Below are positions 19,521-43,903 of a stretch of 44,004 bases of DNA, in pieces. The notes beneath the pieces were generated by a model. The model had not been told where the DNA came from and searched no databases. It worked only from the letters and a program-made list of their open reading frames with translations. Source of the stretch: Acidobacteriota bacterium. Its GTDB lineage: Bacteria > Acidobacteriota > Vicinamibacteria > Vicinamibacterales > UBA8438. The translations under genes and the position numbers were made by a program. The stretch spans positions 1 to 44,004 of the forward strand of contig VXME01000026.1 of assembly GCA_009861545.1 (NCBI GenBank). Direction: 5' to 3'. Numbering within the stretch: the stretch's first letter is position 1; each line of letters begins with the position of its first letter.

Positions 19521-19582
19521 CATGGCGCAGTCAACGTTATGTCCGGACACCCACGCGCTTGGCGGCGTGGCGCGGCGATCTG

Positions 19583-22411
19583 ATGCCATCCCTCTCGCGA
19601 GCCGGCCGCTGGTACCTGGCGGGAGCGGTTTCGCTCACCGTCTTCTGGCTGGCCCTGCGCGGCTTCGCGCCGGCCCCCGGGCTCACGCGCAGCTACCACT
19701 ACCCGTACGCCCCGCTCAACCGCTCGACCGAGCCAGCCCTCGAAGAACTGGCCGCCCCGGTCGTCGAAGAACACATCTCCACGGTCGACCTTGCGTTTAT
19801 CGACGAGCGAGGTCACCCCGCAAGAGACTACCTGGTGCGCTGGAACGGAGTCTGGTTTTCCCCCCGCCCGGAACGGATCGACTTCTACGCCGCCGCCGAC
19901 GATGGCGTGGTCGTGCGGCTGGACGGCGAGATCGTGATCGAACGGAACCCCGACACCGGCATGGCAACCGCGGTGCGGACGGTGGAGCTCGACGCGGGCG
20001 CCCACCGACTGGAGATCGACCACTGGCAGCACGGCGGCCCATCCGGGCTGTACCTGGCATGGGCTCCCGCGGGCGGCGATTCTCCGGTCCCTCTCGGCCC
20101 GGATCGGCTGTTCGCGGCGGATCCGGGCGCCCTCGCCTACCGGATGCTGGCGGCGTTGCCGGCGCTGGGCATGCTCGTTCTGCTGGGCTGGGGGGCGCTT
20201 CCCGCATTGATGCTCGGCCGGATGGTCCATCGAGAAGTCTCCGCCTTGACCAGACAGGTGCTGGCGACCCGCCTGCGGGTCGTGCTGTTCCCCGCGCTCC
20301 TCGGTCCAAGTCAGCTCTTGATGTTCGGCCCCTGGACGGTGCATGCCACCAATCGGACCGAGTTCCTGGTGTCGTTCTGGAGCCTGGCTCCACGCTGGCT
20401 CTGGCTGCTGGGCCCCATCGCGGGTGGACTGGCGGCGCTCGGGATCGTCCTGCCGGAGCGATGGTTTACGCGCTACGTCGCCGCGCTCTGGGCTGTCGGC
20501 GTGCTGCTCTGGGTACAGGGCAACCTGCTGGTCGGCAACTACGGCTTGCTGGACGGTGCCGGACTCGACCTGGCGTCGCACGCCTGGCGGGCCCCGGCCG
20601 AGGCGGGGCTCTGGATCGGTGGAATCGGCTTGGCGACGTTGCTTGCCGGGGCGGTCATGCGGGCCGCCCCTCTGGCGAGCGCGCTCCTGATGGCGCTTCA
20701 GGCGGCCGTCCTGCTGCTGCCGGCGGCGGTCGCACCGGCGGTGGACCGGGCATCCACCCTGCCTACCACCTGGGAAGGGGACACCGACTGGCAGTTGCCG
20801 CCGGAGGGAATTTACGAGCTGTCGCGTACCCGCAACATCATCCACATCGTGCTCGACATGTTCCCGACGCACGTGTTCGCCGAAATTGCCGCCGCCGATC
20901 GGCCTGCCTTCGACGACCGCTGGTCCGGGTTCACCTTCTTCCGGGATCACCTGGGCGCTTTCCGCACCACGAAGGCCAGCATGCCCGCGATGCTCACCGG
21001 AGTGGCCTATCGCAACGAGTTGCCGTTCAACGAGTTCAGAGCGCACCGGGCGAACGTCACCGTACTGCATGCGCTCGGGGAGCAGGGCTATCGGCTCCGG
21101 TGGGCAGCGCCCTGGGCGCCGCCGCGCGGCGACCGCCCGGCCCCGTCCCTGCCCGCCGGTCTCGATGCGTCGACATCGTACCGCATCCCGTCGCCGTACG
21201 GGAGTCGGCGGGACTACCTTGCCGTCTCGGCAGCCCAGTTGCTCGACCTGTCCCTGTTCCGGCACGCACCCCACGACCTGAAGGCCGGCGTCTACAACGA
21301 TGGGCAATGGCTTCTCCAGCCGCGGGTTGCAGCGCGGATGGAGGTGGAGGCGGCTACGGAACGAGCCGTCGGGGACCTCCGGTTTCTGCGGGAGTTCGCC
21401 GACCGGATCAACCCGGGGGAGGATGCCCCGGTGTACGCCCTGCTGCACGCGATCGCACCGCACTACCCGATCGTCGTGGACGCGGACTGCCGGTACTTCG
21501 GGAAACGACTGCCGGTCTCCAAAGACAGCTACGACGCACAGGCGCGATGCGCGTTGAGCAGTGTCCAGGCACTGCTCGACAGGCTCCGCTCTCTCGATCT
21601 CTACGACCGCACCGCCATCGTCTTGACATCCGATCACGGATTGGCCGCGCTGGCTCCCGGCGACCATCCGCTGCGCGGGATACGCTCACCGGCCGGGGTG
21701 CTCGACGGGATCGCGACCGATGCCACGCCGCTACTCGCGATCAAGCCCTTCGGCGCGCGCGGGCCGCTTCGCACGTCCGACGCCCCGACCGCGATCACCG
21801 ACCTGCCGGCCACGCTGCTCGACCTCGCGGAGCTGCCGAATACCCTGCGTCGGGGCACGTCGGTGCTTGCGCTCGATCCGGCGACGCCTCGCGAGCGCAC
21901 GTACGCCCATTACGAGTGGGGGAGGCGAAACGGCTGGGCGAGTCCGTACTTCGACGTGCTCCACGTGTTCTCCGTCAACGGACGCGTGACCGATGCCGAA
22001 TCCTGGCGCTATCGAGAGGCGCTCTTCCAGCCATATTTCGATCGCGAGGGGCAACGCAGGACACATCGCGTCGGCCTGCATGCGCTCGAGGACCGAACGA
22101 CGGGCCAGACCGGCCGACCGGTCTACCGGACCGACGGCTACGCGGTCTTCTACGCGGCGCCCGACAACCCGCGCATCACGTTCGACGTGCGCAACGCGTC
22201 GACCGCCCGGTCGCCGCGGACGGTGACCGTGCGCATCGACGGCGATGTCGTCGGCGAGCACCTTGTAGACGAGACGTGGCGCACGCTCGCCTATCCCGTC
22301 GCGGCGCGCGACGCGGACGACAGCCCTTTCTGTGTAGAGTTGCTGGTCAGCCCGGTCCGGCGCGCCGGCGAGGACCCCGACGGCGCGATGTTGCTCCGGG
22401 GCGAGTTCTGA
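19583..22411 (+). CDS. Membrane sulfatase/phosphoglycerol-transferase-like protein with PA14-like domain, tandem copy 1
   Basis: This encodes about 942 residues. Order: N-terminal membrane anchor (RWYLAGAVSLTVFWLAL); a periplasmic PA14-like region (IDFYAAADDGVVVRLDGEIVIE, then AGAHRLEIDHWQHGG); six or seven membrane helices (about 190-400); and an alkaline-phosphatase-superfamily domain. In that domain IIHIVLDMFP supplies a metal-binding Asp, TTKASMPAMLTG the likely nucleophile region, and VLTSDHGL the Asp-His metal pair. Relatives act on surface polymers (LTA synthase, EptA, OpgB type) or as sulfatases; the substrate is unknown. ATG 19583 is used. TTG 19559 is possible, while ATG 19539, which matches the start of copy 2, is out of frame here. 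The gene shares a 1,113-bp block with copy 2. Confidence 0.8.
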   Translation: MPSLSRAGRWYLAGAVSLTVFWLALRGFAPAPGLTRSYHYPYAPLNRSTEPALEELAAPVVEEHISTVDLAFIDERGHPARDYLVRWNGVWFSPRPERIDFYAAADDGVVVRLDGEIVIERNPDTGMATAVRTVELDAGAHRLEIDHWQHGGPSGLYLAWAPAGGDSPVPLGPDRLFAADPGALAYRMLAALPALGMLVLLGWGALPALMLGRMVHREVSALTRQVLATRLRVVLFPALLGPSQLLMFGPWTVHATNRTEFLVSFWSLAPRWLWLLGPIAGGLAALGIVLPERWFTRYVAALWAVGVLLWVQGNLLVGNYGLLDGAGLDLASHAWRAPAEAGLWIGGIGLATLLAGAVMRAAPLASALLMALQAAVLLLPAAVAPAVDRASTLPTTWEGDTDWQLPPEGIYELSRTRNIIHIVLDMFPTHVFAEIAAADRPAFDDRWSGFTFFRDHLGAFRTTKASMPAMLTGVAYRNELPFNEFRAHRANVTVLHALGEQGYRLRWAAPWAPPRGDRPAPSLPAGLDASTSYRIPSPYGSRRDYLAVSAAQLLDLSLFRHAPHDLKAGVYNDGQWLLQPRVAARMEVEAATERAVGDLRFLREFADRINPGEDAPVYALLHAIAPHYPIVVDADCRYFGKRLPVSKDSYDAQARCALSSVQALLDRLRSLDLYDRTAIVLTSDHGLAALAPGDHPLRGIRSPAGVLDGIATDATPLLAIKPFGARGPLRTSDAPTAITDLPATLLDLAELPNTLRRGTSVLALDPATPRERTYAHYEWGRRNGWASPYFDVLHVFSVNGRVTDAESWRYREALFQPYFDREGQRRTHRVGLHALEDRTTGQTGRPVYRTDGYAVFYAAPDNPRITFDVRNASTARSPRTVTVRIDGDVVGEHLVDETWRTLAYPVAARDADDSPFCVELLVSPVRRAGEDPDGAMLLRGEF
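19754..20866 (+). repeat. 1,113-bp block shared with 22766-23878, unit 1
   Basis: By reading the two genes side by side, every base from 19754 to 20866 appears identical to the sequence 3,012 bases downstream, while bases just outside differ at many positions. The block covers the PA14-like region and the membrane helices. It is a direct repeat embedded within a larger diverged tandem duplication. Confidence 0.9.
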
Positions 22412-22540: not shown

Positions 22541-25414
22541 ATGTCGGAACACCCACGCAGCACCGCTCGCCTGCCGGCATGGCGCGGCGGCTTGGCGCCA
22601 TCCCTCTCGCGCGCTGGTCGCTGGTACCTGGCGGGAGCGATCGCGCTCACCGTCCTCTGGCTGGTCGCGCGCGGCTTCGCACCGACCACCGGGCTCATGC
22701 GCAGCTACCACTACCCGTACGCCCCGTTCGATCGCTCGACCGAACCGGCCTTCGAAGAATTGGCTGCCCCGGTCGTCGAAGAACACATCTCCACGGTCGA
22801 CCTTGCGTTTATCGACGAGCGAGGTCACCCCGCAAGAGACTACCTGGTGCGCTGGAACGGAGTCTGGTTTTCCCCCCGCCCGGAACGGATCGACTTCTAC
22901 GCCGCCGCCGACGATGGCGTGGTCGTGCGGCTGGACGGCGAGATCGTGATCGAACGGAACCCCGACACCGGCATGGCAACCGCGGTGCGGACGGTGGAGC
23001 TCGACGCGGGCGCCCACCGACTGGAGATCGACCACTGGCAGCACGGCGGCCCATCCGGGCTGTACCTGGCATGGGCTCCCGCGGGCGGCGATTCTCCGGT
23101 CCCTCTCGGCCCGGATCGGCTGTTCGCGGCGGATCCGGGCGCCCTCGCCTACCGGATGCTGGCGGCGTTGCCGGCGCTGGGCATGCTCGTTCTGCTGGGC
23201 TGGGGGGCGCTTCCCGCATTGATGCTCGGCCGGATGGTCCATCGAGAAGTCTCCGCCTTGACCAGACAGGTGCTGGCGACCCGCCTGCGGGTCGTGCTGT
23301 TCCCCGCGCTCCTCGGTCCAAGTCAGCTCTTGATGTTCGGCCCCTGGACGGTGCATGCCACCAATCGGACCGAGTTCCTGGTGTCGTTCTGGAGCCTGGC
23401 TCCACGCTGGCTCTGGCTGCTGGGCCCCATCGCGGGTGGACTGGCGGCGCTCGGGATCGTCCTGCCGGAGCGATGGTTTACGCGCTACGTCGCCGCGCTC
23501 TGGGCTGTCGGCGTGCTGCTCTGGGTACAGGGCAACCTGCTGGTCGGCAACTACGGCTTGCTGGACGGTGCCGGACTCGACCTGGCGTCGCACGCCTGGC
23601 GGGCCCCGGCCGAGGCGGGGCTCTGGATCGGTGGAATCGGCTTGGCGACGTTGCTTGCCGGGGCGGTCATGCGGGCCGCCCCTCTGGCGAGCGCGCTCCT
23701 GATGGCGCTTCAGGCGGCCGTCCTGCTGCTGCCGGCGGCGGTCGCACCGGCGGTGGACCGGGCATCCACCCTGCCTACCACCTGGGAAGGGGACACCGAC
23801 TGGCAGTTGCCGCCGGAGGGAATTTACGAGCTGTCGCGTACCCGCAACATCATCCACATCGTGCTCGACATGTTCCCGGCGCACGCGTTCGCGGGGATCG
23901 CCGCCGCAGACCGGCCCGCCTTCGACGACGACTGGTCCGGGTTCACCTTCTTCACGAATCACCTCGGCGCCTTCCCGACCACGAAGGCCAGCATGCCGGC
24001 GATGCTCACCGGAGCGGCCTATCGCAACGAGTCGCCGTTCTACGAGTTCAGGGCGCGCCGTGCGAACGACTCCGTCCTGCACGCGCTCGGGGAGCAGGGC
24101 TATCAGCTCCGCTGGGTGACCCCCCTGGGCGGCGACCGTCCGGCCCCGTCGCTGCCAGGGCTCGATGCGTCGGCCTGGTACCGCATCCCGTCGCCGTACG
24201 GGAGCCGGCGAGACTACCTTTCCGTCTCGGCGGCCCAGTTGCTCGACCTGTCGCTGTTCCGGCATGCGCCGCACGACCTGAAGGCCGGCGTCTACAACGA
24301 CGGGCGGTGGCTGCTCCAGCCGCGCGTTGCAGCGCGGCTGGAGGTAGAGGCGGCTACGGAACGAGCCGCCGGGGACATCCGATTCCTGCGCGAGCTCGCG
24401 GGCCGGGTCACCCCGACGGGCGATGCCCCGGTGTACGCCCTGCTGCACGTGATCGCGCCGCACCCGCCGATCGTCGTCGATGCCGACTGCCGGTACCTCG
24501 GGGAGCACCTGCCGGTCACCGCGGCCAGCTTCGACGCGCAGGCGCGGTGCGCGTTGAGCGGTGTGCAGGCGCTGCTCGACAGACTCCGGGATCTCGATCT
24601 GTACGACCGCACCGCCGTCGTCGTCACGTCCGATCACGGATTGGCCGCATTGGCTTCCGACGACCACCCGCTGCACGGGGTACGCTCACCGGCCGGGCCG
24701 CTCGACCGGATCGCGACCGATGCCACGCCGCTGCTCGCAGTCAAGCCGTTCGGCGCGCGGGGACCGCTTCACACATCCGACGCGCCGACCGCGATCACCG
24801 ACCTGCCGGCCACCCTGCTCGACCTCGCGGAGCTGCCGAATACGCTGCGCCGGGGCACTTCGGTGTTCGCCCTCGATCCGGCAGCGCCCCGCGAGCGTAC
24901 CTACGCCCATTACGAGTGGGGCAGACGAAACGACTGGGCGAGTCCGTACTTCGACGTGCTCCACGTGTTCTCGGTCAACGGACGGGTGACCAATCCCGAA
25001 GCCTGGCGCTATCGAGAGGCGCTCTTCCAGCCGACCGACGATCGCGACGCACAACGCCGGGCGCATCGCGTCGGCCTGCATGCGGTCGAGGACGGACCGG
25101 CGGACCGGACCGGCCGTCGGGTCTACCGGACCGGCGACTACGCGGTCTTCTACGCAGCGCCCGACACCCGGCGCATCACGTTCGACGTGCGCAAGGAATC
25201 GGCGGCCCGGCCGCCACGGACGGTAACCGTACGCATCGACGGCGAGGTCGTCGGGGAACACCGCCTTGCGGACGAGGCCTGGCGCCCGCTCGCCTATCCC
25301 GTTGCGGCGCGCGGCGGGGACGACAGCCCTTTCTGCGTAGAGTTGCTGCTCAGCCCGGTCGGACGCGCCGGCGAGGGCGCCGACGGCGGGATGTTGCTCC
25401 GGGGCGACTTCTGA
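22541..25414 (+). CDS. Membrane sulfatase/phosphoglycerol-transferase-like protein with PA14-like domain, tandem copy 2
   Basis: This is a 957-residue paralogue of the gene at 19583-22411 with the same architecture: N-terminal anchor, PA14-like region, membrane-helix block, then the phosphatase/sulfatase-superfamily domain (VLDMFP, TTKASMPAMLTG, VVTSDHGL). It starts with ATG at 22541 after a purine-rich GAGGGGACGG. The N-terminal ~75 residues and the catalytic half differ from copy 1 by scattered substitutions, including differences near the active site (APHPP for APHYP, TNHLGAFPTT for RDHLGAFRTT), so the two enzymes may have distinct substrates. It is followed by convergent methyltransferase and glycosyltransferase genes, which supports a surface-glycan role. 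Confidence 0.82.
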   Translation: MSEHPRSTARLPAWRGGLAPSLSRAGRWYLAGAIALTVLWLVARGFAPTTGLMRSYHYPYAPFDRSTEPAFEELAAPVVEEHISTVDLAFIDERGHPARDYLVRWNGVWFSPRPERIDFYAAADDGVVVRLDGEIVIERNPDTGMATAVRTVELDAGAHRLEIDHWQHGGPSGLYLAWAPAGGDSPVPLGPDRLFAADPGALAYRMLAALPALGMLVLLGWGALPALMLGRMVHREVSALTRQVLATRLRVVLFPALLGPSQLLMFGPWTVHATNRTEFLVSFWSLAPRWLWLLGPIAGGLAALGIVLPERWFTRYVAALWAVGVLLWVQGNLLVGNYGLLDGAGLDLASHAWRAPAEAGLWIGGIGLATLLAGAVMRAAPLASALLMALQAAVLLLPAAVAPAVDRASTLPTTWEGDTDWQLPPEGIYELSRTRNIIHIVLDMFPAHAFAGIAAADRPAFDDDWSGFTFFTNHLGAFPTTKASMPAMLTGAAYRNESPFYEFRARRANDSVLHALGEQGYQLRWVTPLGGDRPAPSLPGLDASAWYRIPSPYGSRRDYLSVSAAQLLDLSLFRHAPHDLKAGVYNDGRWLLQPRVAARLEVEAATERAAGDIRFLRELAGRVTPTGDAPVYALLHVIAPHPPIVVDADCRYLGEHLPVTAASFDAQARCALSGVQALLDRLRDLDLYDRTAVVVTSDHGLAALASDDHPLHGVRSPAGPLDRIATDATPLLAVKPFGARGPLHTSDAPTAITDLPATLLDLAELPNTLRRGTSVFALDPAAPRERTYAHYEWGRRNDWASPYFDVLHVFSVNGRVTNPEAWRYREALFQPTDDRDAQRRAHRVGLHAVEDGPADRTGRRVYRTGDYAVFYAAPDTRRITFDVRKESAARPPRTVTVRIDGEVVGEHRLADEAWRPLAYPVAARGGDDSPFCVELLLSPVGRAGEGADGGMLLRGDF
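22766..23878 (+). repeat. 1,113-bp block shared with 19754-20866, unit 2
   Basis: This is the second copy of the apparently identical block, offset by exactly 3,012 bases. Homology, but not identity, continues on both sides, from the start codon region to past the stop codon (both followed by GACGCGGC-CGGGTCGG). Confidence 0.9.
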
Positions 25415-29583: not shown

Positions 29584-29743
29584 CTGCTGTACACCGAACG
29601 CCCACGCTGCCCTCTCAATCGGCGGGAGGCCCGTGGCCGCGGTGATGATACACGATTCGGCGCCGGCCGCCGGTCGCGGCCGGCCTTGAACCGTGACGGG
29701 TTCCCGCCTTTACGCCGACCAGGAAAACCGGCATGATGCGGGC

Positions 29744-32431
29744 GTGCGCAGCTTCCCTCCCGACGCCCCGCGAATCGCGCGGCGCATCGTCACCCTTCTC
29801 GCCGCCGCGCTCTTTCTGCCGACCGGCGTCGCGTCCGCGGACGACGACGAGCCCGGCCTCGGCCCGCCGCCGCTGTACGACGAGTTGCGCGAGGCGGTGC
29901 CCGAGCCGGCCGGACACGTCCGCGGCGGGCGGCTGTGGATCGACCGCTTCGAGTTCGAGCTGGAGCGCGGCGATCTCTTTCTGACGCCGCCGGTCGGCGA
30001 TCACGCGCACGCCGCGGTGTTTCTCGGCCGCGGCACCGTGCGCGCGTGGCCGCCGGACGGCGTGGAGCACCAGCAACTCCGGAAGCTGATCGACGAGGAC
30101 CGCCTCGAGGAAGAGTTCGAGCGGTTCGTCTTCTGGTTCACCGGCGACCTCGACGAACGGCTGCGGGCGCTGGTGACCGATCCGCCGGCGCGCGGCGGGC
30201 GGGGCGGGCGCGCGGCGCGGCGGCAGCGCGACCGGGCGGTGGACCTGCTCGAGGACCGCCGGGAGTCGCTGCTGGAAGACCGCCTCCGCAATCCGGACGC
30301 CCGCGTTGCGCTCGACCGCTGGCGCGCGGCGGCGGGGCTGGCCGCGCCCGCCGACCGCCCCTACTTCTTCGCCGAGCTGGACGGCCGCGAGCACGACTGG
30401 TTCTCCATCGAGATCGAGCCGCGCGACCTGGAGGAGGTCACGATCGGCAAGTTCGATCGGCGCCGCAAGCTGCTCGACGTCTGGATGGGCTTCCACGCCC
30501 TCGACGAGTTCGCGCCGGCGTTGGTCGAGCCGACGCTCGGTCGTTTCCCCCGCGATCCGGAGACCGCCGGGCCCGTCCATCCCGACGCCGAGCGGGACGA
30601 CGACGAGTGGAGCTTCCGCGATTACGGCCTGTCGCCCCGCTATCTCGTCCCCGACGAAGAGCGCTGGTACCCGCGGATGGGGGTCTCCCGCACCGACGTC
30701 GACATGGCCATCGAGAGCAACGGCGACGTCCGCGCGAGCGTGGCGCTGGTGATGGAGCCGCGGGTGCCGCTGGCCGCGTTCCGCCTGACCATCTCGCCGT
30801 TCGCCGACGTCACCGACGTGCGCTGGCGGATGGACCTGCCGCCGGACGTCGACGACGCGACGCGCGTGGCGCTGCTCGCCCCGGACCGTGCGCCGCCGGA
30901 GCAGGTGGCGGAACGCGACCCGGACGACGCGGACGACGGGCCGCCCGGCCCGGACGAACCGGCCCCCATCGCCGGCGAGCAGCTCCACTACGTGCAGGCG
31001 ACCCACGACCGGCGCTTCTCCGAGGACCTGCACGACCCGTGGCTTACCGTGCTGCTGCCGCGCCCGGTGGCCGCCGGCGAGCGCTTCGTGCTGGAGATCG
31101 CCTACGAGGCGGAGCTGATCGAGCGGCTGCGCGACGCCTCCGGGTACCTGCTGAAGGACACCGGCCTGTGGGTCCCGCGCCATCCGGACAACCGGCGGCG
31201 GCGCTTCGACCTGACGTTCCGGGTGCCCGAGCGCTTCCGGATCGCGAGCGGCGGCGCGTTGCTGGACGAACGCGTCGAGGACGACACCCGCATCATGCGC
31301 TGGGTGACGAACCGGCCGGTCCGCGGCACGATGTCGTTCCACATGGGGCGGTTCGAGGTGGACGAGGTGACGCGCGAGGGCCTGCCTCCCATCGCCGTGT
31401 ACGCCGACCGCAACCACGTCGGCTTCGCGCCCGGCAACCGCGAGAAGACGCTCGACGACCTGATCGGGTCGCTGCGGACCTACATCGACTACTTCGGACC
31501 CTATCCGTTCGATTCGCTGGCCGTCACCGAGACGCGGAGCAGCGGCGGGCAGGCGTTTCCCGGACTGGTTCTGCTGACCTTCCACGTGTTCGGCGCGCTG
31601 CACACGGGAGAGTCCGAGCTGTTCCGCGCCCACGAGGTCGCCCACCAGTGGTGGGGCGCCGGCGCCGACTGGGAGTCGTACCGCGACCAGTGGATCACGG
31701 AGGGCTTCGCCAACTACTCGGCCGCGCTCTACGTGCTGTCGGGACTCGGCGAGGAGGACCAGTTCCGGGACATGCTCGACGCGTGGCGGCTGGACGCCCT
31801 CGGCGAGGTCAACGTCGGCCAGGGCTTCGGCAAGCGCTACGGCTTCGTGCCGGCGGTGGTCCGCGAGAGCGACGGCAACGAGTCGGGAGCGCTGGTGGTC
31901 GGCTTCCGGCTGCGCACCACCGACACGCCGTTCGACTACCGCCTGATCGTCTACGAGAAGGGCGCGTTCGTCCTGCACATGCTCCGCATGCTCCTGATGG
32001 ACCTCGAGACCGGCGACGACGGGCGCTTCCGCGACCTGATGCGCGGGTTCATGGACGCTTACGTCGGCGGCGTCACGAACACCCGCGCGTTCGAGGCGGC
32101 GGTCACCGAGGCCTTCGGCGAGCCGATGGACTGGTTCTTCGACCAGTGGGTCTACGGCGTCGACGTGCCCACCTACCGCCCCGACCTGGAGGTCTCGCCG
32201 TTGCGCGACGCGCGGGAGCCGTTCGTGCTGCACGGCCGCGTGCGGCAGGAGGACGTGCCGCCCGGCTTCCGGAGCTCGGTCCCCATCCGACTGGAGTTCC
32301 GCGACCGCGACCCGATAGTCCGGCGGATCCTGATCGACCGGCCGGAGGTCGACGTGGAGATCCCGATCCCCGCCGAGCCGACCCGCATCGAGTTCAACTA
32401 CCTGCACGGAGTCCTCGCCCGCGTCCGCTAG
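29744..32431 (+). CDS. Exported M1-family zinc aminopeptidase-like protein
   Basis: This encodes about 895 residues. A signal peptide follows the GTG at 29744 (IARRIVTLLAAALFLPTGVASA); an upstream in-frame GTG at 29693 would add 17 residues. Residues ~40-550 form a large beta-rich N-terminal region with Asp/Glu- and Arg-rich segments. The catalytic gluzincin motif HEVAHQWWG is followed 18 residues on by the third zinc ligand Glu in WITEGFANYSA, as in M1 peptidases. The usual GxMEN exopeptidase motif is replaced by SSGGQAFPGLVLL. The protein is longer than typical M1 enzymes and likely periplasmic or outer-surface. It may cleave peptides, or belong to the poorly known non-aminopeptidase M1 relatives. 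Confidence 0.86.
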   Translation: MRSFPPDAPRIARRIVTLLAAALFLPTGVASADDDEPGLGPPPLYDELREAVPEPAGHVRGGRLWIDRFEFELERGDLFLTPPVGDHAHAAVFLGRGTVRAWPPDGVEHQQLRKLIDEDRLEEEFERFVFWFTGDLDERLRALVTDPPARGGRGGRAARRQRDRAVDLLEDRRESLLEDRLRNPDARVALDRWRAAAGLAAPADRPYFFAELDGREHDWFSIEIEPRDLEEVTIGKFDRRRKLLDVWMGFHALDEFAPALVEPTLGRFPRDPETAGPVHPDAERDDDEWSFRDYGLSPRYLVPDEERWYPRMGVSRTDVDMAIESNGDVRASVALVMEPRVPLAAFRLTISPFADVTDVRWRMDLPPDVDDATRVALLAPDRAPPEQVAERDPDDADDGPPGPDEPAPIAGEQLHYVQATHDRRFSEDLHDPWLTVLLPRPVAAGERFVLEIAYEAELIERLRDASGYLLKDTGLWVPRHPDNRRRRFDLTFRVPERFRIASGGALLDERVEDDTRIMRWVTNRPVRGTMSFHMGRFEVDEVTREGLPPIAVYADRNHVGFAPGNREKTLDDLIGSLRTYIDYFGPYPFDSLAVTETRSSGGQAFPGLVLLTFHVFGALHTGESELFRAHEVAHQWWGAGADWESYRDQWITEGFANYSAALYVLSGLGEEDQFRDMLDAWRLDALGEVNVGQGFGKRYGFVPAVVRESDGNESGALVVGFRLRTTDTPFDYRLIVYEKGAFVLHMLRMLLMDLETGDDGRFRDLMRGFMDAYVGGVTNTRAFEAAVTEAFGEPMDWFFDQWVYGVDVPTYRPDLEVSPLRDAREPFVLHGRVRQEDVPPGFRSSVPIRLEFRDRDPIVRRILIDRPEVDVEIPIPAEPTRIEFNYLHGVLARVR

Positions 32432-32464
32432 CGCCCACCCTGCGTGGCGCCGAGAGCGGTGGGG

Positions 32465-32470
32465 TACAAT
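32465..32470 (+). promoter_or_regulatory. -10-like box TACAAT upstream of radical SAM gene
   Basis: TACAAT lies 47 bases before the ATG at 32518. The -35 region (about 32442) is GC-rich and not recognisable. It is a plausible independent promoter for the radical SAM gene. Confidence 0.35.
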
Positions 32471-32517
32471 GAATTTCCCGCGCCGCCGGCATACGGATCC
32501 TGCGACGGGCATCCGCG

Positions 32518-33948
32518 ATGCGTGACAAACGAGAGATACGCACCTACATCGACGCGCACCGGCATCGCCGGCAGAGCAACAAGGTGCTGCACGGGCATCC
32601 GTCCCCCGTCTTCTGGCTGGATCGGGACGTCTCCGTGCCGGCCGTCATGCATGACCGGCGGCGCGCGGCGCGCGAGGTCCGCAAGCGGATAAACCTCTAC
32701 GTCGGCACCCCCTACTGCCTGCCGACGGACCCGGGACGCTGCGGTTTCTGCCTGTTCCCCACCGAGGTCTACCGCGACCGGCAGCAGCTCGACACCTACC
32801 TCGACTACCTGGCGCGCGAAGGGGAGATGTTCCGCCCGCACCTCGAGGGCGCCGAGCTGGCGAGCATCTACTTCGGCGGCGGTACGTCGAATCTCTACAA
32901 GGCCGACCAGTACGCGGCGCTCATGAACATCGTCCGCGGCGTCTTCGACGTGCCGCCCGATATCGAGGTGACGCTGGAGGGCATTCCGCAGACGTTCAGC
33001 CACGAAAAGCTGGCCGCCATGCAGGCCTGCGGGATCAACCGCATCAGCATGGGCGCGCAGCAGCTCGACGACGAGCTGATCAAGGCGAGCGGGCGCAAGC
33101 AGACCGCCGCCCAGGTGTTCCGGACGCTCGATTCCTGCCGGGCGCTCGGCCTGCCGGTGAGCGTCGACCTGATCTTCGGCTGGCCGAACCAGACGACCGA
33201 CCACATGCTGCGCGACCTGCAGGCGCTGGTCGAGGCCGGTCTCACGCACATTACGCACTACGAGCTGAACGTGGCGGGGCGCACCGACTTCGCACGCAAC
33301 CGCCGCGACGAGCTGCCTTCGACCGAGCGCAACCTGGAGATGTACCGCATCGGCCGCGACTACCTGGTGTCCGAGGGGTTCACGCAGGTGACCCCCTACG
33401 ACTTCCAGCGCAACGGCCCGCTGCAGAGCAGCTATCTCTACGAGGAGCTGTTCCGCAAGCCGTTCCGCGAAGACGACGGACAGCTCGTGGGCTACGACGC
33501 CTGGGGCTGGGGATTCGCCGGCATTTCGTTCTTCTTCGGCACGCCCCGGAATCCGGGCTGGGCCTACATCAACCAGACCCGCGTGGACGACTACTTCCGG
33601 GACCTGGACGCCGGCCGGTTCCCCGTGATGCGGGGCTTCCACTACTCGGAGTCCGACCTCCGGCTCCACCTCCTGTTCCAGGAGCTCCAGAGCCTGGAGG
33701 TCGATCGCCGGCGCTACCTGACGCTGGTCGGCAGGGACGCGGTGGCGGAGCACCGTCCGGTGTGGGACGCGCTGGCCGACCTGGGGTGGGCGACGGTCGA
33801 CGAGGACCTGATCGCCATCGAGGGAGACGGCGCCTTCTACCTGCCGCTGATCCAGAACGCGCTGGCCCACGACCGGCTGGACGCGATGCGCAGGGAACGG
33901 CGGACCACCGCGGACGTCGCCGTCATGCCGGCGGCCCGCGCCAGTTGA
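32518..33948 (+). CDS. HemN-like radical SAM protein with C-x7-C-x2-C cluster motif
   Basis: This 476-residue protein has the HemN/coproporphyrinogen dehydrogenase-like layout. The iron-sulfur motif reads YVGTPYCLPTDPGRCGFC, with cysteines at 67, 75 and 78, instead of the normal C-x3-C-x2-C. Other HemN-family marks are intact: SIYFGGGTSNLY, IEVTLEGIPQTF, INRISMGAQQLDDELIKASGR and VSVDLIFGWPNQT. The C-terminal domain (about 330-470) differs from true HemN. Family members include haem synthesis enzymes, HemW chaperones and radical methyltransferases; I cannot choose. It stands alone, 86 bases after the M1 peptidase gene. No SD precedes the ATG. Confidence 0.85.
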   Translation: MRDKREIRTYIDAHRHRRQSNKVLHGHPSPVFWLDRDVSVPAVMHDRRRAAREVRKRINLYVGTPYCLPTDPGRCGFCLFPTEVYRDRQQLDTYLDYLAREGEMFRPHLEGAELASIYFGGGTSNLYKADQYAALMNIVRGVFDVPPDIEVTLEGIPQTFSHEKLAAMQACGINRISMGAQQLDDELIKASGRKQTAAQVFRTLDSCRALGLPVSVDLIFGWPNQTTDHMLRDLQALVEAGLTHITHYELNVAGRTDFARNRRDELPSTERNLEMYRIGRDYLVSEGFTQVTPYDFQRNGPLQSSYLYEELFRKPFREDDGQLVGYDAWGWGFAGISFFFGTPRNPGWAYINQTRVDDYFRDLDAGRFPVMRGFHYSESDLRLHLLFQELQSLEVDRRRYLTLVGRDAVAEHRPVWDALADLGWATVDEDLIAIEGDGAFYLPLIQNALAHDRLDAMRRERRTTADVAVMPAARAS

Positions 33949-34029: not shown

Positions 34030-34905
34030 TCAACCGGCCGGTGCGCCGCCCGACTCCACCGCCGCCGCTACCGCCAGCGTCCGCCGCGCCGACGCGATGA
34101 CGGGCCGCTCGATCAGCTTGCCGTCGACCAGCAGCACCCCGCCCCGGTTGCGGTCGTAGGCCTCGACGATGCGCCGCGCCCAGGCCACCTCCGCCGCCGC
34201 CGGCGAGAACGCCGCCTGGATCACCGCGACCTGCGTCGGGTGGATGGCGGCCTTGCCGTCGAAGCCGAGCCCGCGGGTGCGGCGGCTCTCGGCGGCCAGC
34301 CCGTCGAGGGCGGGGACGTCCATGAACGGCGAGTCGAGCGCGCTGGCGCCGACGAGGGCGGCGGCGACCACCACGCGCGAGCGCGCGTAGAGGGCGGCGT
34401 CCCAGCTCACCTCGCACCCGACGTCGGCCGCGAAGTCGATGGCGCCGAAGAAGACCGCGGACACGGTGGGCGCCGCGGCGGCGATCGCCGCGGCGGCGGC
34501 CACGCCGCGCGCCGTCTCCACCATCACGATGAGGGGCAGGTCGGGCAGGGCGTCGCCGAGCGCCCGCGCCACGCCGCGGATCTCCTCCGGACCCTCGCAC
34601 TTCGGCAGCATCAGCGCGTCGGGGCGGATGCCGGATTGCCGCACCGCCTCCAGGTCGCGCTGTCCGAGGTCGGTCTTCGGGTCGTTGATGCGCAGGCTGA
34701 CCTCGGCGCGCACCGGCTCGCGGCCTGCGAACAGGGCCAGCGCCCGGTCCCGCGCCTCGTCCTTGGCGTCGAACGAGACGCCGTCCTCCAGGTCGATGCA
34801 GACCGCGTCGGCCCCGGTCGCCAACGCCTTGGGATAACGGTCGGGGCGGACCGCCGGAACGAACAGCAGGCTGCGCCGCACGCGGAATGCCGGCTTCTCG
34901 GGCAT
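34030..34905 (-). CDS. CitE/HpcH-type CoA-ester lyase (citramalyl- or malyl-CoA lyase-like)
   Basis: This 291-residue TIM-barrel lyase is related to the citrate lyase beta subunit. Conserved features: RRSLLFVPAVRPDRYPKAL at the start, the metal/substrate region DAVCIDLEDGV, the Arg in SLRINDP, MLPKCEGPEEI, the metal-binding Glu in LIVMVETARGV and the C-terminal GFDGKAAIHPTQV. It starts four bases after the PrpD-like gene. With a MaoC hydratase and a class III CoA-transferase in the same unit, the best fit is (S)-citramalyl-CoA lyase, which releases acetyl-CoA and pyruvate in itaconate breakdown. Malyl-CoA lyase activity is an alternative. It is the last gene of the operon. Confidence 0.87.
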   Translation of the reverse strand: MPEKPAFRVRRSLLFVPAVRPDRYPKALATGADAVCIDLEDGVSFDAKDEARDRALALFAGREPVRAEVSLRINDPKTDLGQRDLEAVRQSGIRPDALMLPKCEGPEEIRGVARALGDALPDLPLIVMVETARGVAAAAAIAAAAPTVSAVFFGAIDFAADVGCEVSWDAALYARSRVVVAAALVGASALDSPFMDVPALDGLAAESRRTRGLGFDGKAAIHPTQVAVIQAAFSPAAAEVAWARRIVEAYDRNRGGVLLVDGKLIERPVIASARRTLAVAAAVESGGAPAG

Positions 34906-40224: not shown

Positions 40225-41349
40225 ATGCTGACACGCATCCACATCGACAATTACAAGTGCCTGACCAACTTCGACCTGCGCCTCGATAACCTCACGCTGC
40301 TCGCCGGAGCGAATGGCTGCGGCAAGTCGGCCATATTCGAGGTGATGGACAAGCTGCGCGAATTCGCGCGCGACACGCAGGTCGATAAGCTGTTTCTCGC
40401 GGACGACCTCACCAGATGGACGACGAAGAGAGAGCAACGCTTCGAGCTGGAGTTCTCGACGGACGGCGGAGTATTCATATACAAGCTGAGTATCGAGCAC
40501 AAGACGGACAGGAAAAGGGACGCCGAAATCAAGAGCGAACACCTTTTGTACGGTGGCAAGCCGGTATTGTCGCATTCCGATCGGGAGTTGAAGCTCTACC
40601 GCGACGACGGCAAGGAGTCTACCTATCCCTTTGGCCGGTTCCGTTCCGCACTGGCGACGGAGGTCGATGAACGCCTTCACTCGCGTCTGCGTCGATTCCG
40701 TGACCATTTGTGTCGGTTTCAAACGCTCTCGCTGGCGCCAAGCCTGATTGACAGTGGATCCAAGGTCGAATCCGACGTGCTTGCTCGCGACGGCGCGAAC
40801 TTCGCCGCCTGGTACCGCGGCCAGATGCTGAACGATCCGCAACAGCTTCAGACCGTGACAGAACGCCTTTCGGAAGTCCTTCCCGGGTTCGCCGGCCTGA
40901 AGCTGTCGGCAAGAACCGGTGACTATCGCGAGCTTCTGGCCACGTTCTCGTCGGAAGGTGACGGCACCTCCCGCGCGTATCGTTTCGATCAGCTTTCAGA
41001 CGGACAGCGGGCTCTACTCGTACTGTATTCGCTCGTTTTCGAGACGATACCCGATACGGGGTCCCCGGGTGGTTCCACCGACATCTCACGCACCCTGTTT
41101 CTCGACGAGCCGGACAACTACGTGACGCTGCCCGAGCTGCAACCATGGCTTGCCGAGCTCGAAGACGGCGCTGGGGATACACTGCCCCAAGTGGTACTGA
41201 TCTCGCATCACCCCGAGGCTATAGACTTCCTGGCCCGCAACACAGTTTGGCTCGCCCGTGAGCCCGAGAGCCACACGCGCGTTGTAAAGCCCAAGAACGA
41301 CACCAGCCTGCAAATGTCCGAAGTGTACGCGCGAGGATGGGCTCCATGA
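40225..41349 (+). CDS. AAA/ABC-type ATPase (SMC/RecF/OLD-like), probable defence protein
   Basis: This 374-residue P-loop ATPase starts MLTRIHIDNYKCLTNFDL, a typical RecF/OLD-like beginning. Walker A is GANGCGKS (28-35), the ABC signature-like LSDGQ lies at about 257-261, Walker B LFLDEPDN at about 291-298, and the switch His in SHHPE at about 327-331, so all catalytic elements are intact. The central region (~90-240) is helical and lacks a zinc hook. There is no TOPRIM domain, so it is not a complete OLD nuclease. The gene overlaps the Dam-type methylase gene by four bases (ATGA), which makes the two a coupled unit. It is the first gene of the proposed defence operon. Confidence 0.88.
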   Translation: MLTRIHIDNYKCLTNFDLRLDNLTLLAGANGCGKSAIFEVMDKLREFARDTQVDKLFLADDLTRWTTKREQRFELEFSTDGGVFIYKLSIEHKTDRKRDAEIKSEHLLYGGKPVLSHSDRELKLYRDDGKESTYPFGRFRSALATEVDERLHSRLRRFRDHLCRFQTLSLAPSLIDSGSKVESDVLARDGANFAAWYRGQMLNDPQQLQTVTERLSEVLPGFAGLKLSARTGDYRELLATFSSEGDGTSRAYRFDQLSDGQRALLVLYSLVFETIPDTGSPGGSTDISRTLFLDEPDNYVTLPELQPWLAELEDGAGDTLPQVVLISHHPEAIDFLARNTVWLAREPESHTRVVKPKNDTSLQMSEVYARGWAP

Positions 41350-42314
41350 AACGCGCGCAGGTCACGCACGACGCGGACCACAGAGCCGGCAATCGGGCTT
41401 TGCGTCCGTTCCTGAAGTGGGCCGGCGGCAAGCGGCAGCTCCTTCCCGCACTTCGCGAGTTCTACCCCGGCAAGTTCAAGACGTACCACGAGCCGTTTCT
41501 CGGGAGCGGCGCCGTCTTCTTCGACCTCGCCGAGAGCGGCGCGCTGCAGCGCGGCAGGGTCAGGCTCACCGACGTCAACGCCGACCTGATCGGCTGCTGC
41601 CTCCGCCTGCGCGACGAGCCGCACGCGGTGATCCGACATCTCCGGCAACTCGAGGCGGGCTATGCCGCGGCGCCGGAGGAACACTACTATCGCATCCGGG
41701 ACGAGGTCTTCAACCCGGCGCGCGCAGCCATTACGAACGGTCGTCACCCGCGGCCGGAGGCGTACTCGCCCGAGCTCGCCGGGATGCTCATCTACCTCAA
41801 CCGCACCGGCTACAACGGTCTTTTCCGTCTGAACTCGAGTGGGCTTTTCAACGTCCCCCGCGGTAGGTACAAGAACCCCAGGATCTGCGACGAGGAGAAC
41901 CTCCGGCGGGTATCCTCCACACTGTCGGAACTCTCCGTGAAGATAGAACTCCTCCGGTTCGAGACCGTCGTGAAATCGGCGCGGAAAGGCGACTTCGTCT
42001 ATTTCGATCCGCCGTACGCTCCCCTGAGTGCAACCGCGCACTTTACGTCCTACACGTCGGATGGATTCGACACCGAGGATCAGCGCGAGCTTCAGCGGGT
42101 AGTGTTCGAGCTGGTGCGCAAGGGATGCCATGTGGTGCTCAGCAACTCGACGGCGCCGGAGATCAAGGAGCTGTACACGGACAACGCGGTAGCAGAGAGG
42201 CTCCACATCAAGGCGCACACCGTGCCGGCGCGCCGCGCCATCAACTCCAACGCGTCTCGCCGAGGGCACGTCGACGAGTACATCATCACGAATGTGCCGA
42301 GACGGGCGGTATAG
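41346..42314 (+). CDS. Dam-type (D12 class) N6-adenine DNA methyltransferase
   Basis: This 322-residue methylase transfers a methyl group from SAM to adenine N6. The N-terminal RPFLKWAGGKRQLLPAL (SAM-binding and start motif of D12 enzymes), HEPFLGSGAVFFD (FxGxG, 49-60), LNRTGYNGLFRLNSSGLFNVP (about 151-170) and the catalytic DPPY (221-224, in FVYFDPPYAPLS) are all present. Dam-like members commonly modify GATC. The ATG at 41346 overlaps the ATPase stop; an ATG at 41337 is also in frame but lacks SD spacing. The nuclease gene starts on the base after its stop codon, pointing to a restriction-modification role rather than a housekeeping one. Confidence 0.93.
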   Translation: MKRAQVTHDADHRAGNRALRPFLKWAGGKRQLLPALREFYPGKFKTYHEPFLGSGAVFFDLAESGALQRGRVRLTDVNADLIGCCLRLRDEPHAVIRHLRQLEAGYAAAPEEHYYRIRDEVFNPARAAITNGRHPRPEAYSPELAGMLIYLNRTGYNGLFRLNSSGLFNVPRGRYKNPRICDEENLRRVSSTLSELSVKIELLRFETVVKSARKGDFVYFDPPYAPLSATAHFTSYTSDGFDTEDQRELQRVVFELVRKGCHVVLSNSTAPEIKELYTDNAVAERLHIKAHTVPARRAINSNASRRGHVDEYIITNVPRRAV

Positions 42315-42713
42315 ATGGCCGGCGGGCGCACGGCCATAGCGAGCGGCACGGATCTCGAACGAGAGGTGGCGAGCCTCGCCGAACGGCTCGGACTTCGCGT
42401 CGGCAGCCAGATCAGGGTCGGCCGGAGACTATGGGGAGCTGAACGCCGTATCGACCTGGTCCTGCGCTACGGGGACTCCGGTCGGAGCCTCGGCATCGAA
42501 TGCAAGTACCAGGGGGTCGGCGGCTCCGCGGAGGAGAAGATCCCGGCGACGATCCAGGACATCGCGGCGTGGCCCATTCCGGGCATCGTCGTTTTCGCCG
42601 GACACGGATTCTCCGACAACATGCGCGCCTATCTGCATTCCACGGGCAAGGCCGTGGCCCATGAGGACCTGCGAGGATGGCTGACACTCTTCTTCGGTCT
42701 GCCGGACGACTGA
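42315..42713 (+). CDS. PD-(D/E)XK-type restriction nuclease
   Basis: This is a small 132-residue protein with the PD-(D/E)XK nuclease core. Glu15/Glu17 lie in a first helix (DLEREVASLAERLGL), Asp47 in RRIDLVLRYG, and Glu62-Cys-Lys64 in LGIECKYQG, giving the D-x14-E-x-K arrangement. The following helix (EEKIPATIQDIAAW) and strand (GIVVFAG) complete the minimal fold. No separate DNA-recognition domain is present, so specificity must come from a partner or from dimerisation. The ATG directly follows the TAG of the methylase gene (TAGATG). The last 37 bases overlap the start proposed for the NamZ-like gene. Probably the effector of the ATPase/Dam operon. Confidence 0.83.
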   Translation: MAGGRTAIASGTDLEREVASLAERLGLRVGSQIRVGRRLWGAERRIDLVLRYGDSGRSLGIECKYQGVGGSAEEKIPATIQDIAAWPIPGIVVFAGHGFSDNMRAYLHSTGKAVAHEDLRGWLTLFFGLPDD

Positions 42714-43903
42714 TCCGACCGGGCGAGGGCGACGCGGCGGCGGGGGTGACCCTCGGCTCCGAACGGCTCCTCGCCTCCGGCATGCTGACCGGCTGGCGCG
42801 TCGGCGTCGTCTCGAACCCCGCGTCGGTCGACGGTGCGTTTCGCCACATCGTGGACCGCATCGCCGCGGAGCCGGGCGTGACGCTGGCCGCGCTGTTCGG
42901 CCCGCAGCACGGCTTTCATGCCGACGTGCAGGACAACATGGTGGAGACCGCCCACGCGCGACACCCGCGACTGGGCGTGCCGATCCACTCGCTCTACAGC
43001 GACACGCGGGAGCCGACGGCGGAGATGCTCGACGGGCTCGACCTGCTGGTCATCGACCTGCAGGACGTCGGGACGCGCGTCTACACGTACATCTACACGC
43101 TGGCCAACTGCCTGCGGGCGGCGCAGCGGTGCGGGTTGCCGGTAGTGGTGTGCGACCGGCCCAACCCGATCGGCGGCGAGGCGGTGGAGGGACCGGTCCT
43201 CGACCCCGCGTTCGCCTCCTTCGTCGGGCAGTTCCCGATCCCCCTGCGCCACGGCATGACGATCGGCGAGCTGGCGAGGCTGTTCAACGACCGGTTCGGC
43301 ATCGGGGCCGACCTGCGGATCATGCCGCTCGACGGCTGGTCGCGCGCGATGCACCACGACGAGGCCGGCGCCCCCTGGGTCATCCCGTCACCGAACCTGC
43401 CGACCCTCGACAGCGCGCTGGTGTACCCGGGGATGGTGCTGCTGGAAGGGACGCTCCTGTCGGAGGGCCGCGGCACCACGCGGCCGTTCGAGCTGGTGGG
43501 CGCGCCGGGGATCGATCCGGAGGGACTGGCCGGATCCCTGAACGGGCTCGGCCTGCCCGGCGTACACTTCCGGCCGGCGACCTTCGAACCGACCTTTCAG
43601 AAGCACGCCGGACGGCCCTGCGGCGGCTGCCAGATCCACGTGACCGACCGGCGCACGTTCCGCCCCGTGCTGGCCGCGGTCGCGGTGATCGCGGCGGGCC
43701 GGGAAGCGCTCGGAGACGGTTTCGGCTGGCGCGAGCCGCCGTACGAGTACGAGCACGACCGAATGCCGATCGACATCCTGGCCGGCTCGGCCGCGCTGCG
43801 GCGCGAGGTCGACGCCGGCCGCGCCGCCGCCGAAATCGCCTCGGGCTGGGAAGGCGCCGTCGAGGCGTTCGAGGCGATCCGGCGGGACTTCCTCCTGTAC
43901 TGA
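42677..43903 (+). CDS. DUF1343/NamZ-type exo-beta-N-acetylmuramidase
   Basis: This 408-residue protein belongs to the family of B. subtilis NamZ, which removes terminal MurNAc residues from peptidoglycan fragments. Family features: GWRVGVVSNPASVDG, LFGPQHGFHADVQDNM, PIHSLYSDTREPTAEMLDGLDLLVIDLQDVGTRVYTY (about 112-148), CDRPNPIGG, PSPNLPTLDSALVYPGMVLLEGT and LSEGRGTTRPFELVGAP. No signal peptide is seen with either start. The ATG at 42677 overlaps the nuclease gene by 37 bases. The GTG at 42746, after the nuclease stop, agrees better with where family homology begins (VTLGSERLLASG) and may be the true start. It is probably a housekeeping gene read through from the operon or from its own promoter. 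Confidence 0.88.
   Translation: MADTLLRSAGRLIRPGEGDAAAGVTLGSERLLASGMLTGWRVGVVSNPASVDGAFRHIVDRIAAEPGVTLAALFGPQHGFHADVQDNMVETAHARHPRLGVPIHSLYSDTREPTAEMLDGLDLLVIDLQDVGTRVYTYIYTLANCLRAAQRCGLPVVVCDRPNPIGGEAVEGPVLDPAFASFVGQFPIPLRHGMTIGELARLFNDRFGIGADLRIMPLDGWSRAMHHDEAGAPWVIPSPNLPTLDSALVYPGMVLLEGTLLSEGRGTTRPFELVGAPGIDPEGLAGSLNGLGLPGVHFRPATFEPTFQKHAGRPCGGCQIHVTDRRTFRPVLAAVAVIAAGREALGDGFGWREPPYEYEHDRMPIDILAGSAALRREVDAGRAAAEIASGWEGAVEAFEAIRRDFLLY

Follow-up and report, generated by a model that had tools for sequence, protein, structure and literature searches.

The C-x7-C-x2-C arrangement of cysteines in radical SAM enzymes has been described before. It is invariant in the HemN-like polyketide cyclopropanases, in which C68, C76, and C79 are the ligands of Jaw5, and Jaw5, Pfl2, and Log2 are encoded in the jawsamycin, fuelimycin, and S. 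longispororuber clusters, respectively (PMC13389473, a 2026 study of polycyclopropanated fatty acids). It is also found in PoyC, a B12-dependent methylase (PMC5682303, PMC11285071). Catalysis by the class C methylases involves two SAM molecules, whose contacts are known from the structure of NocN, where Y96 holds the methionine part of SAM-II (PMC12871812).

The window analyzed here, a stretch of 44,004 nucleotides from an Acidobacteriota bacterium (contig VXME01000026.1), encodes a HemN-like radical SAM protein with the same arrangement at positions 32518 to 33948 of the forward strand. The open reading frame starts with ATG, specifies 476 amino acids, and is conserved in four phyla. The original prediction had noticed three cysteines at positions 67, 75, and 78 and a four-residue insertion (LPTDPGR between the first two), and this is borne out by the reading frame and by a pairwise alignment with E. 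coli HemN (1olt), in which they align with C62, C66, and C69 across a four-residue gap in HemN. The motif C67-LPTDPGR-C75-GF-C78 spans positions 32716 to 32751 (+), with the cysteine codons at 32716 to 32718, 32740 to 32742, and 32749 to 32751. The reading frame is a real gene: the protein matches a single Pfam family, Radical_SAM (PF04055; 4.1e-18, 66.5 bits against a cut-off of 29.5), the GC content by codon position is 0.68/0.43/0.93, and the pairwise dN/dS values of 0.15 to 0.23 against four relatives indicate purifying selection. A long opposite-strand reading frame at 32428 to 33870 (−), which overlaps the gene, was taken as a shadow of the GC-rich genome. The domain match and the invariance of C67, C75, and C78 place the protein in the radical SAM superfamily.

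A clade with fixed C-x7-C-x2-C spacing

The spacing was exactly x7 in all 42 loci from genome contigs and in every further relative with a readable motif, and no other spacing occurred. It occurs in relatives from four phyla, and a sequencing error or a mutation private to this sequence is ruled out by this conservation. The relatives belong to one family of Vicinamibacterales (Acidobacteriota), Methylomirabilota (11 of 79 sampled genomes), Granulosicoccaceae, and two Deinococcus plasmids, the latter being the only matches above 40% identity in the plasmid collection. Relatives were present in 18 of 48 genomes of Granulosicoccales and in 1 of 369 in a class-wide sample. The scan of genome contigs relied on the strict patterns RQSNKVLH and NLYVGTPY, which miss distant members, so this distribution is a lower bound; the control genomes of the genome search contained no Streptomyces. 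Zero relatives were found in the viral contigs searched, giving no sign of viral carriage, and a literature search combining Granulosicoccus with radical SAM returned no report. Matches in Embleya and Nonomuraea were considered as Jaw5-like sequences and rejected, as they have C-x3-C-x2-C and look like STM4012.

A maximum-likelihood tree was built together with other proteins of the HemN type, among them two more from the window's genome, both with C-x3-C-x2-C. In it, a branch with 100/99 support separates all C-x7 sequences from HemN, HemW, HutW, and STM4012. The clade has a signature that opens near the N terminus with NKVLHxxPSP and continues at the cluster with YVxxPxCxxTxPxxCGxCLFPxE, YI replacing YV in two Methylomirabilota members. 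NKVLH (residues 21 to 25; 32578 to 32592, +) and, within the insert, T70 and P72 do not vary among the 16 diverse members compared. In one Methylomirabilota copy (L087/L088, genome G268), which has PCCLPT instead of PYCLPT, a frame change apparently divides the N-terminal from the C-terminal half.

The best NCBIfam models for the window protein are HutW, STM4012, HemW, HemZ, and HemN, and all score far below their curated cut-offs: 154.7 bits against 400 for HutW/ChuW (TIGR04107, E = 3e-45), 154.4 against 380 for STM4012 (NF006067, E = 5e-45), and 116.9 against 324.95 for HemN (TIGR00538). Membership in any of these five families was rejected on these scores. At least one clade member has been annotated as a coproporphyrinogen oxidase family protein, a name that is corrected here, since the clade fails the tests for that family.

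Hence, the proposal of a distinct subfamily is supported by the fixed spacing and by the single, well-supported clade of its carriers. The spacing is indeed rare, as had been claimed, but it is not new. Because it has been published both in Jaw5, Pfl2, and Log2 and in the unrelated PoyC, the spacing alone marks no new reaction, and the suggestion that it signals a reaction of its own is not supported as stated.

Fold and SAM-binding residues

An AlphaFold2 model computed from an alignment of 31 relatives (mean pLDDT of 85) predicts a full-length HemN fold. It matches HemN (1olt) with a Z score of 34.8 over 405 residues (10 to 455) at 22% identity, the next structure having a Z score of 13.9. 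The cluster loop (residues 71 to 80) belongs to the regions modeled with the lowest confidence (pLDDT of about 58), and hence the model does not fix the geometry of the longer loop.

The original prediction held that all other HemN-family motifs are kept, which is not entirely correct. The SAM-I amino-group motif GGGT (residues 120 to 123; 32875 to 32886, +) is invariant and aligns with G98 to T101 of NocN and with HemN. Nine SAM contacts mapped from NocN by alignment are identical or conservatively changed in the window protein (Y34 to Y61, Y96 to Y118, G100 to G122, T101 to T123, R153 to R175, G157 to G179, R171 to R193, D196 to D217, and S225 to T246), and they are invariant in the 16 members except that Y118 is phenylalanine in the two Deinococcus proteins. 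R230 and C133 of NocN are not kept, the window protein having N251 and G155 at these positions. Many of these contacts also occur in HemN, and their conservation therefore backs two-SAM chemistry more than methylene transfer specifically.

Two residues of HemN are not kept. H58 and C71 are important for coproporphyrinogen III oxidase, and the window protein has G63 (alanine in Deinococcus) and F80 in their place. HemN has a histidine at position 109, where the clade has tyrosine or phenylalanine like Y96 of NocN; judged by the alignment, this aromatic residue (Y118 in the window protein) leans to the NocN type.

Gene neighborhoods

The genes near the radical SAM gene differ between phyla. On the Deinococcus plasmids, it is clustered with genes for a reducing type I polyketide synthase (PKS; KS-AT-DH-ER-KR-ACP), a condensation-adenylation-nitroreductase-like nonribosomal peptide synthetase, a thioester reductase, an aminotransferase, and a GNAT protein, with KASIII and acyl carrier protein (ACP) genes directly downstream. 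In Methylomirabilota (L051, L052, L053, L054, L074, and other loci), the frame of about 850 codons runs on into a C-terminal alpha/beta-hydrolase of about 300 residues, and in Granulosicoccaceae a homologous hydrolase has its own gene, the next one downstream, which overlaps the radical SAM gene or lies no more than about 300 bases from it. The serine, aspartate, and histidine of this hydrolase are invariant, and acid lipase and monoglyceride lipase are the nearest structures to its model. The fusion in one phylum and the gene pair in another point to a joint function of the radical SAM protein and the hydrolase, and the PKS/ACP context together with the lipase context suggests acyl substrates.

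Several Granulosicoccaceae loci have additional features. In 11 loci within L059 to L073, the gene immediately preceding the radical SAM gene, in the same orientation, encodes a GGDEF-EAL protein (PAS-GGDEF-EAL in L073), a hint of control by c-di-GMP. In the Granulosicoccus loci L070, L072, and L073, the hydrolase gene is followed by a gene of the arginase/agmatinase family, which in two of the three starts at most 4 bases from the end of the hydrolase gene. The radical SAM and hydrolase pair is also present in a bryozoan symbiont, Chromatiales bacterium ex Bugula neritina AB1 (L067).

In the window, an M1-like metallopeptidase with HEVAH at residue 647 (29693 to 32431, +; PF01433, 8.5e-12) is encoded 86 bp upstream of the radical SAM gene. 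Such a gene is directly upstream in 19 of the 21 Vicinamibacterales loci, two of which are pieces of one genome, and is not near the radical SAM gene in the other phyla. The neighbor on the opposite strand, an HpcH/HpaI-type C-C lyase (34030 to 34905, −), is probably not part of the function. No PKS was found among the scanned window genes, the window's genome gave no match to a PKS dehydratase (PS-DH), and neither this genome nor 11 others of its family contained a homologue of the partner hydrolase at an E value of 1e-8 or better. The genome does encode ordinary CFA-synthase-like (CMAS) genes.

Elsewhere in the window, two sulfatase-domain proteins of about 950 residues with hydrophobic N-terminal stretches are encoded by a tandem duplicate (19559 to 22411 and 22541 to 25414, +) with identities of 88.5% (protein) and 91.6% (DNA). 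Near the contig end there are genes for a D12-class DNA adenine methyltransferase (41337 to 42314, +) and a NamZ-type exo-muramidase (42677 to 43903, +).

Proposed function and relation to known enzymes

We propose, with about an even chance of being right, that the protein is a two-SAM class C-type one-carbon (methylene) transferase, a methylase or cyclopropanase, that acts on an acyl chain and is related to the polyketide cyclopropanases. In a HemN-fold enzyme of this separate clade, C67, C75, and C78 would hold one [4Fe-4S] cluster for SAM cleavage, and the extra residues would lengthen the cluster loop with no ligand lost. Two SAM molecules would be bound as in HemN and the class C methylases, to judge from the conserved contacts. 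The substrate would most likely be an unsaturated acyl chain, presumably an ACP-bound polyketide in Deinococcus and a lipid-type acyl chain in the groups with a fused or neighboring lipase-like hydrolase, and the expected product would carry the added carbon. For the organism of the window, the assignment of an acyl substrate is the least secure part, as no carrier or hydrolase gene lies nearby. This genome has neither a PKS dehydratase match nor a partner-hydrolase homologue at the E value given above, so the complex proposed for Deinococcus cannot be the substrate here, and its CMAS genes count against the proposal in that there is no evident need for another route to cyclopropanes.

The same site could serve a different purpose. 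With two SAM molecules bound and used in the manner of HemN, the second radical might instead remove a hydrogen from the substrate, acyl or not, so that the outcome is desaturation, decarboxylation, or coupling with no transfer of carbon. We consider this possible but rather doubtful. The HemN fold extends over the full length, the two-SAM contacts are largely common to HemN and class C, so that conservation cannot tell them apart, and hydrogen abstraction is within reach of a two-SAM site, as the revised mechanism of HemN cited in PMC12871812 demonstrates; however, the NocN-like aromatic residue in place of HemN H109 argues against it, and the HemN-like enzymes that we found described with x7 spacing are one-carbon transferases only. 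It is improbable that the protein is a heme-pathway enzyme or heme chaperone (HemN, HemW, HemZ, HutW, or STM4012) whose motif has drifted. These families do supply the best NCBIfam matches, but with the low scores given above, H58 and C71 of HemN are lost, the window's genome already has its two HemN-type proteins with C-x3-C-x2-C, and no heme genes were seen near the gene in the window, while the Deinococcus neighbors are PKS genes.

The M1-like peptidase upstream in Vicinamibacterales and the peptide substrate of PoyC, which has the same spacing, would fit a peptide- or protein-modifying enzyme with the peptidase (in the window) or the hydrolase (elsewhere) as maturation protease. This, too, is unlikely, given that the 86-bp gap is too small for a precursor gene between the peptidase and radical SAM genes, that the hydrolase model is lipase-like, and that the peptidase association does not extend to other phyla. 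The nonstandard spacing could finally be read as an error or as the broken cluster motif of a dead enzyme, which has a negligible probability in view of the x7 spacing shared without exception by independently assembled relatives, the low dN/dS, the invariance of all the cysteines, and the near-complete invariance of the SAM residues.

Returning to one-carbon transfer onto acyl chains, we tentatively hypothesize, as a bolder and less likely reading than the general proposal, that in Acidobacteriota, Methylomirabilota, and Granulosicoccaceae a C-x7 HemN-like lineage outside polyketide clusters uses two-SAM radical chemistry to place methyl or cyclopropane carbons on acyl chains, either free or in membrane lipids, with a fused radical SAM-lipase or a gene pair in two of these groups. 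To our knowledge, no lipid pathway with two-SAM radical addition of methyl or cyclopropane carbons and a fused radical SAM-lipase has been described. If one-carbon transfer onto acyl chains is borne out, the radical route to cyclopropane or methyl-branched acyl chains, so far studied in actinobacterial polyketides of fuel interest, would extend to uncultured bacteria of soil, groundwater, and the sea, with the fused lipase as a direct lead to its substrate. Should the acyl one-carbon reading be wrong, the clade still stands as a well-defined orphan family, recognizable by its fixed signature.

Among the known systems, HemN resembles the window protein in its whole fold and its SAM-binding residues and differs in having C-x3-C-x2-C and the H58/C71 pair replaced here. 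HutW/ChuW and STM4012 give the highest-scoring NCBIfam models, yet they have C-x3-C-x2-C and occupy separate branches of the tree. The class C methylases NocN/NosN, TbtI, and C10P share the HemN fold, and the SAM-I and SAM-II residues of NocN are largely conserved in the window protein, although these two-SAM residues do not separate class C from HemN; NocN differs in having C-x3-C-x2-C, and C10P acts with a partner methyltransferase, none of which was found for the window clade. PoyC, the polytheonamide C-methylase, provides the same spacing in a working enzyme, but it is a class B, B12-dependent enzyme with a peptide substrate and is not HemN-like. The closest in published description are Jaw5, Pfl2, and Log2, which like the window protein are HemN-like, stand-alone, and C-x7-C-x2-C, with the cysteines at 68/76/79 versus 67/75/78, and we infer kinship to them from the shared motif as described in PMC13389473. 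They are tied to a type I PKS and an ACP, as are the Deinococcus members of the clade, the only ones located beside an iterative type I PKS. The survey of cyclopropanases covered actinobacterial PKS clusters (PMC13389473), whereas most clade members, that of the window included, have no adjoining PKS, and, unlike Jaw5, Pfl2, and Log2, many of them have a lipase-like hydrolase attached by fusion or encoded alongside.
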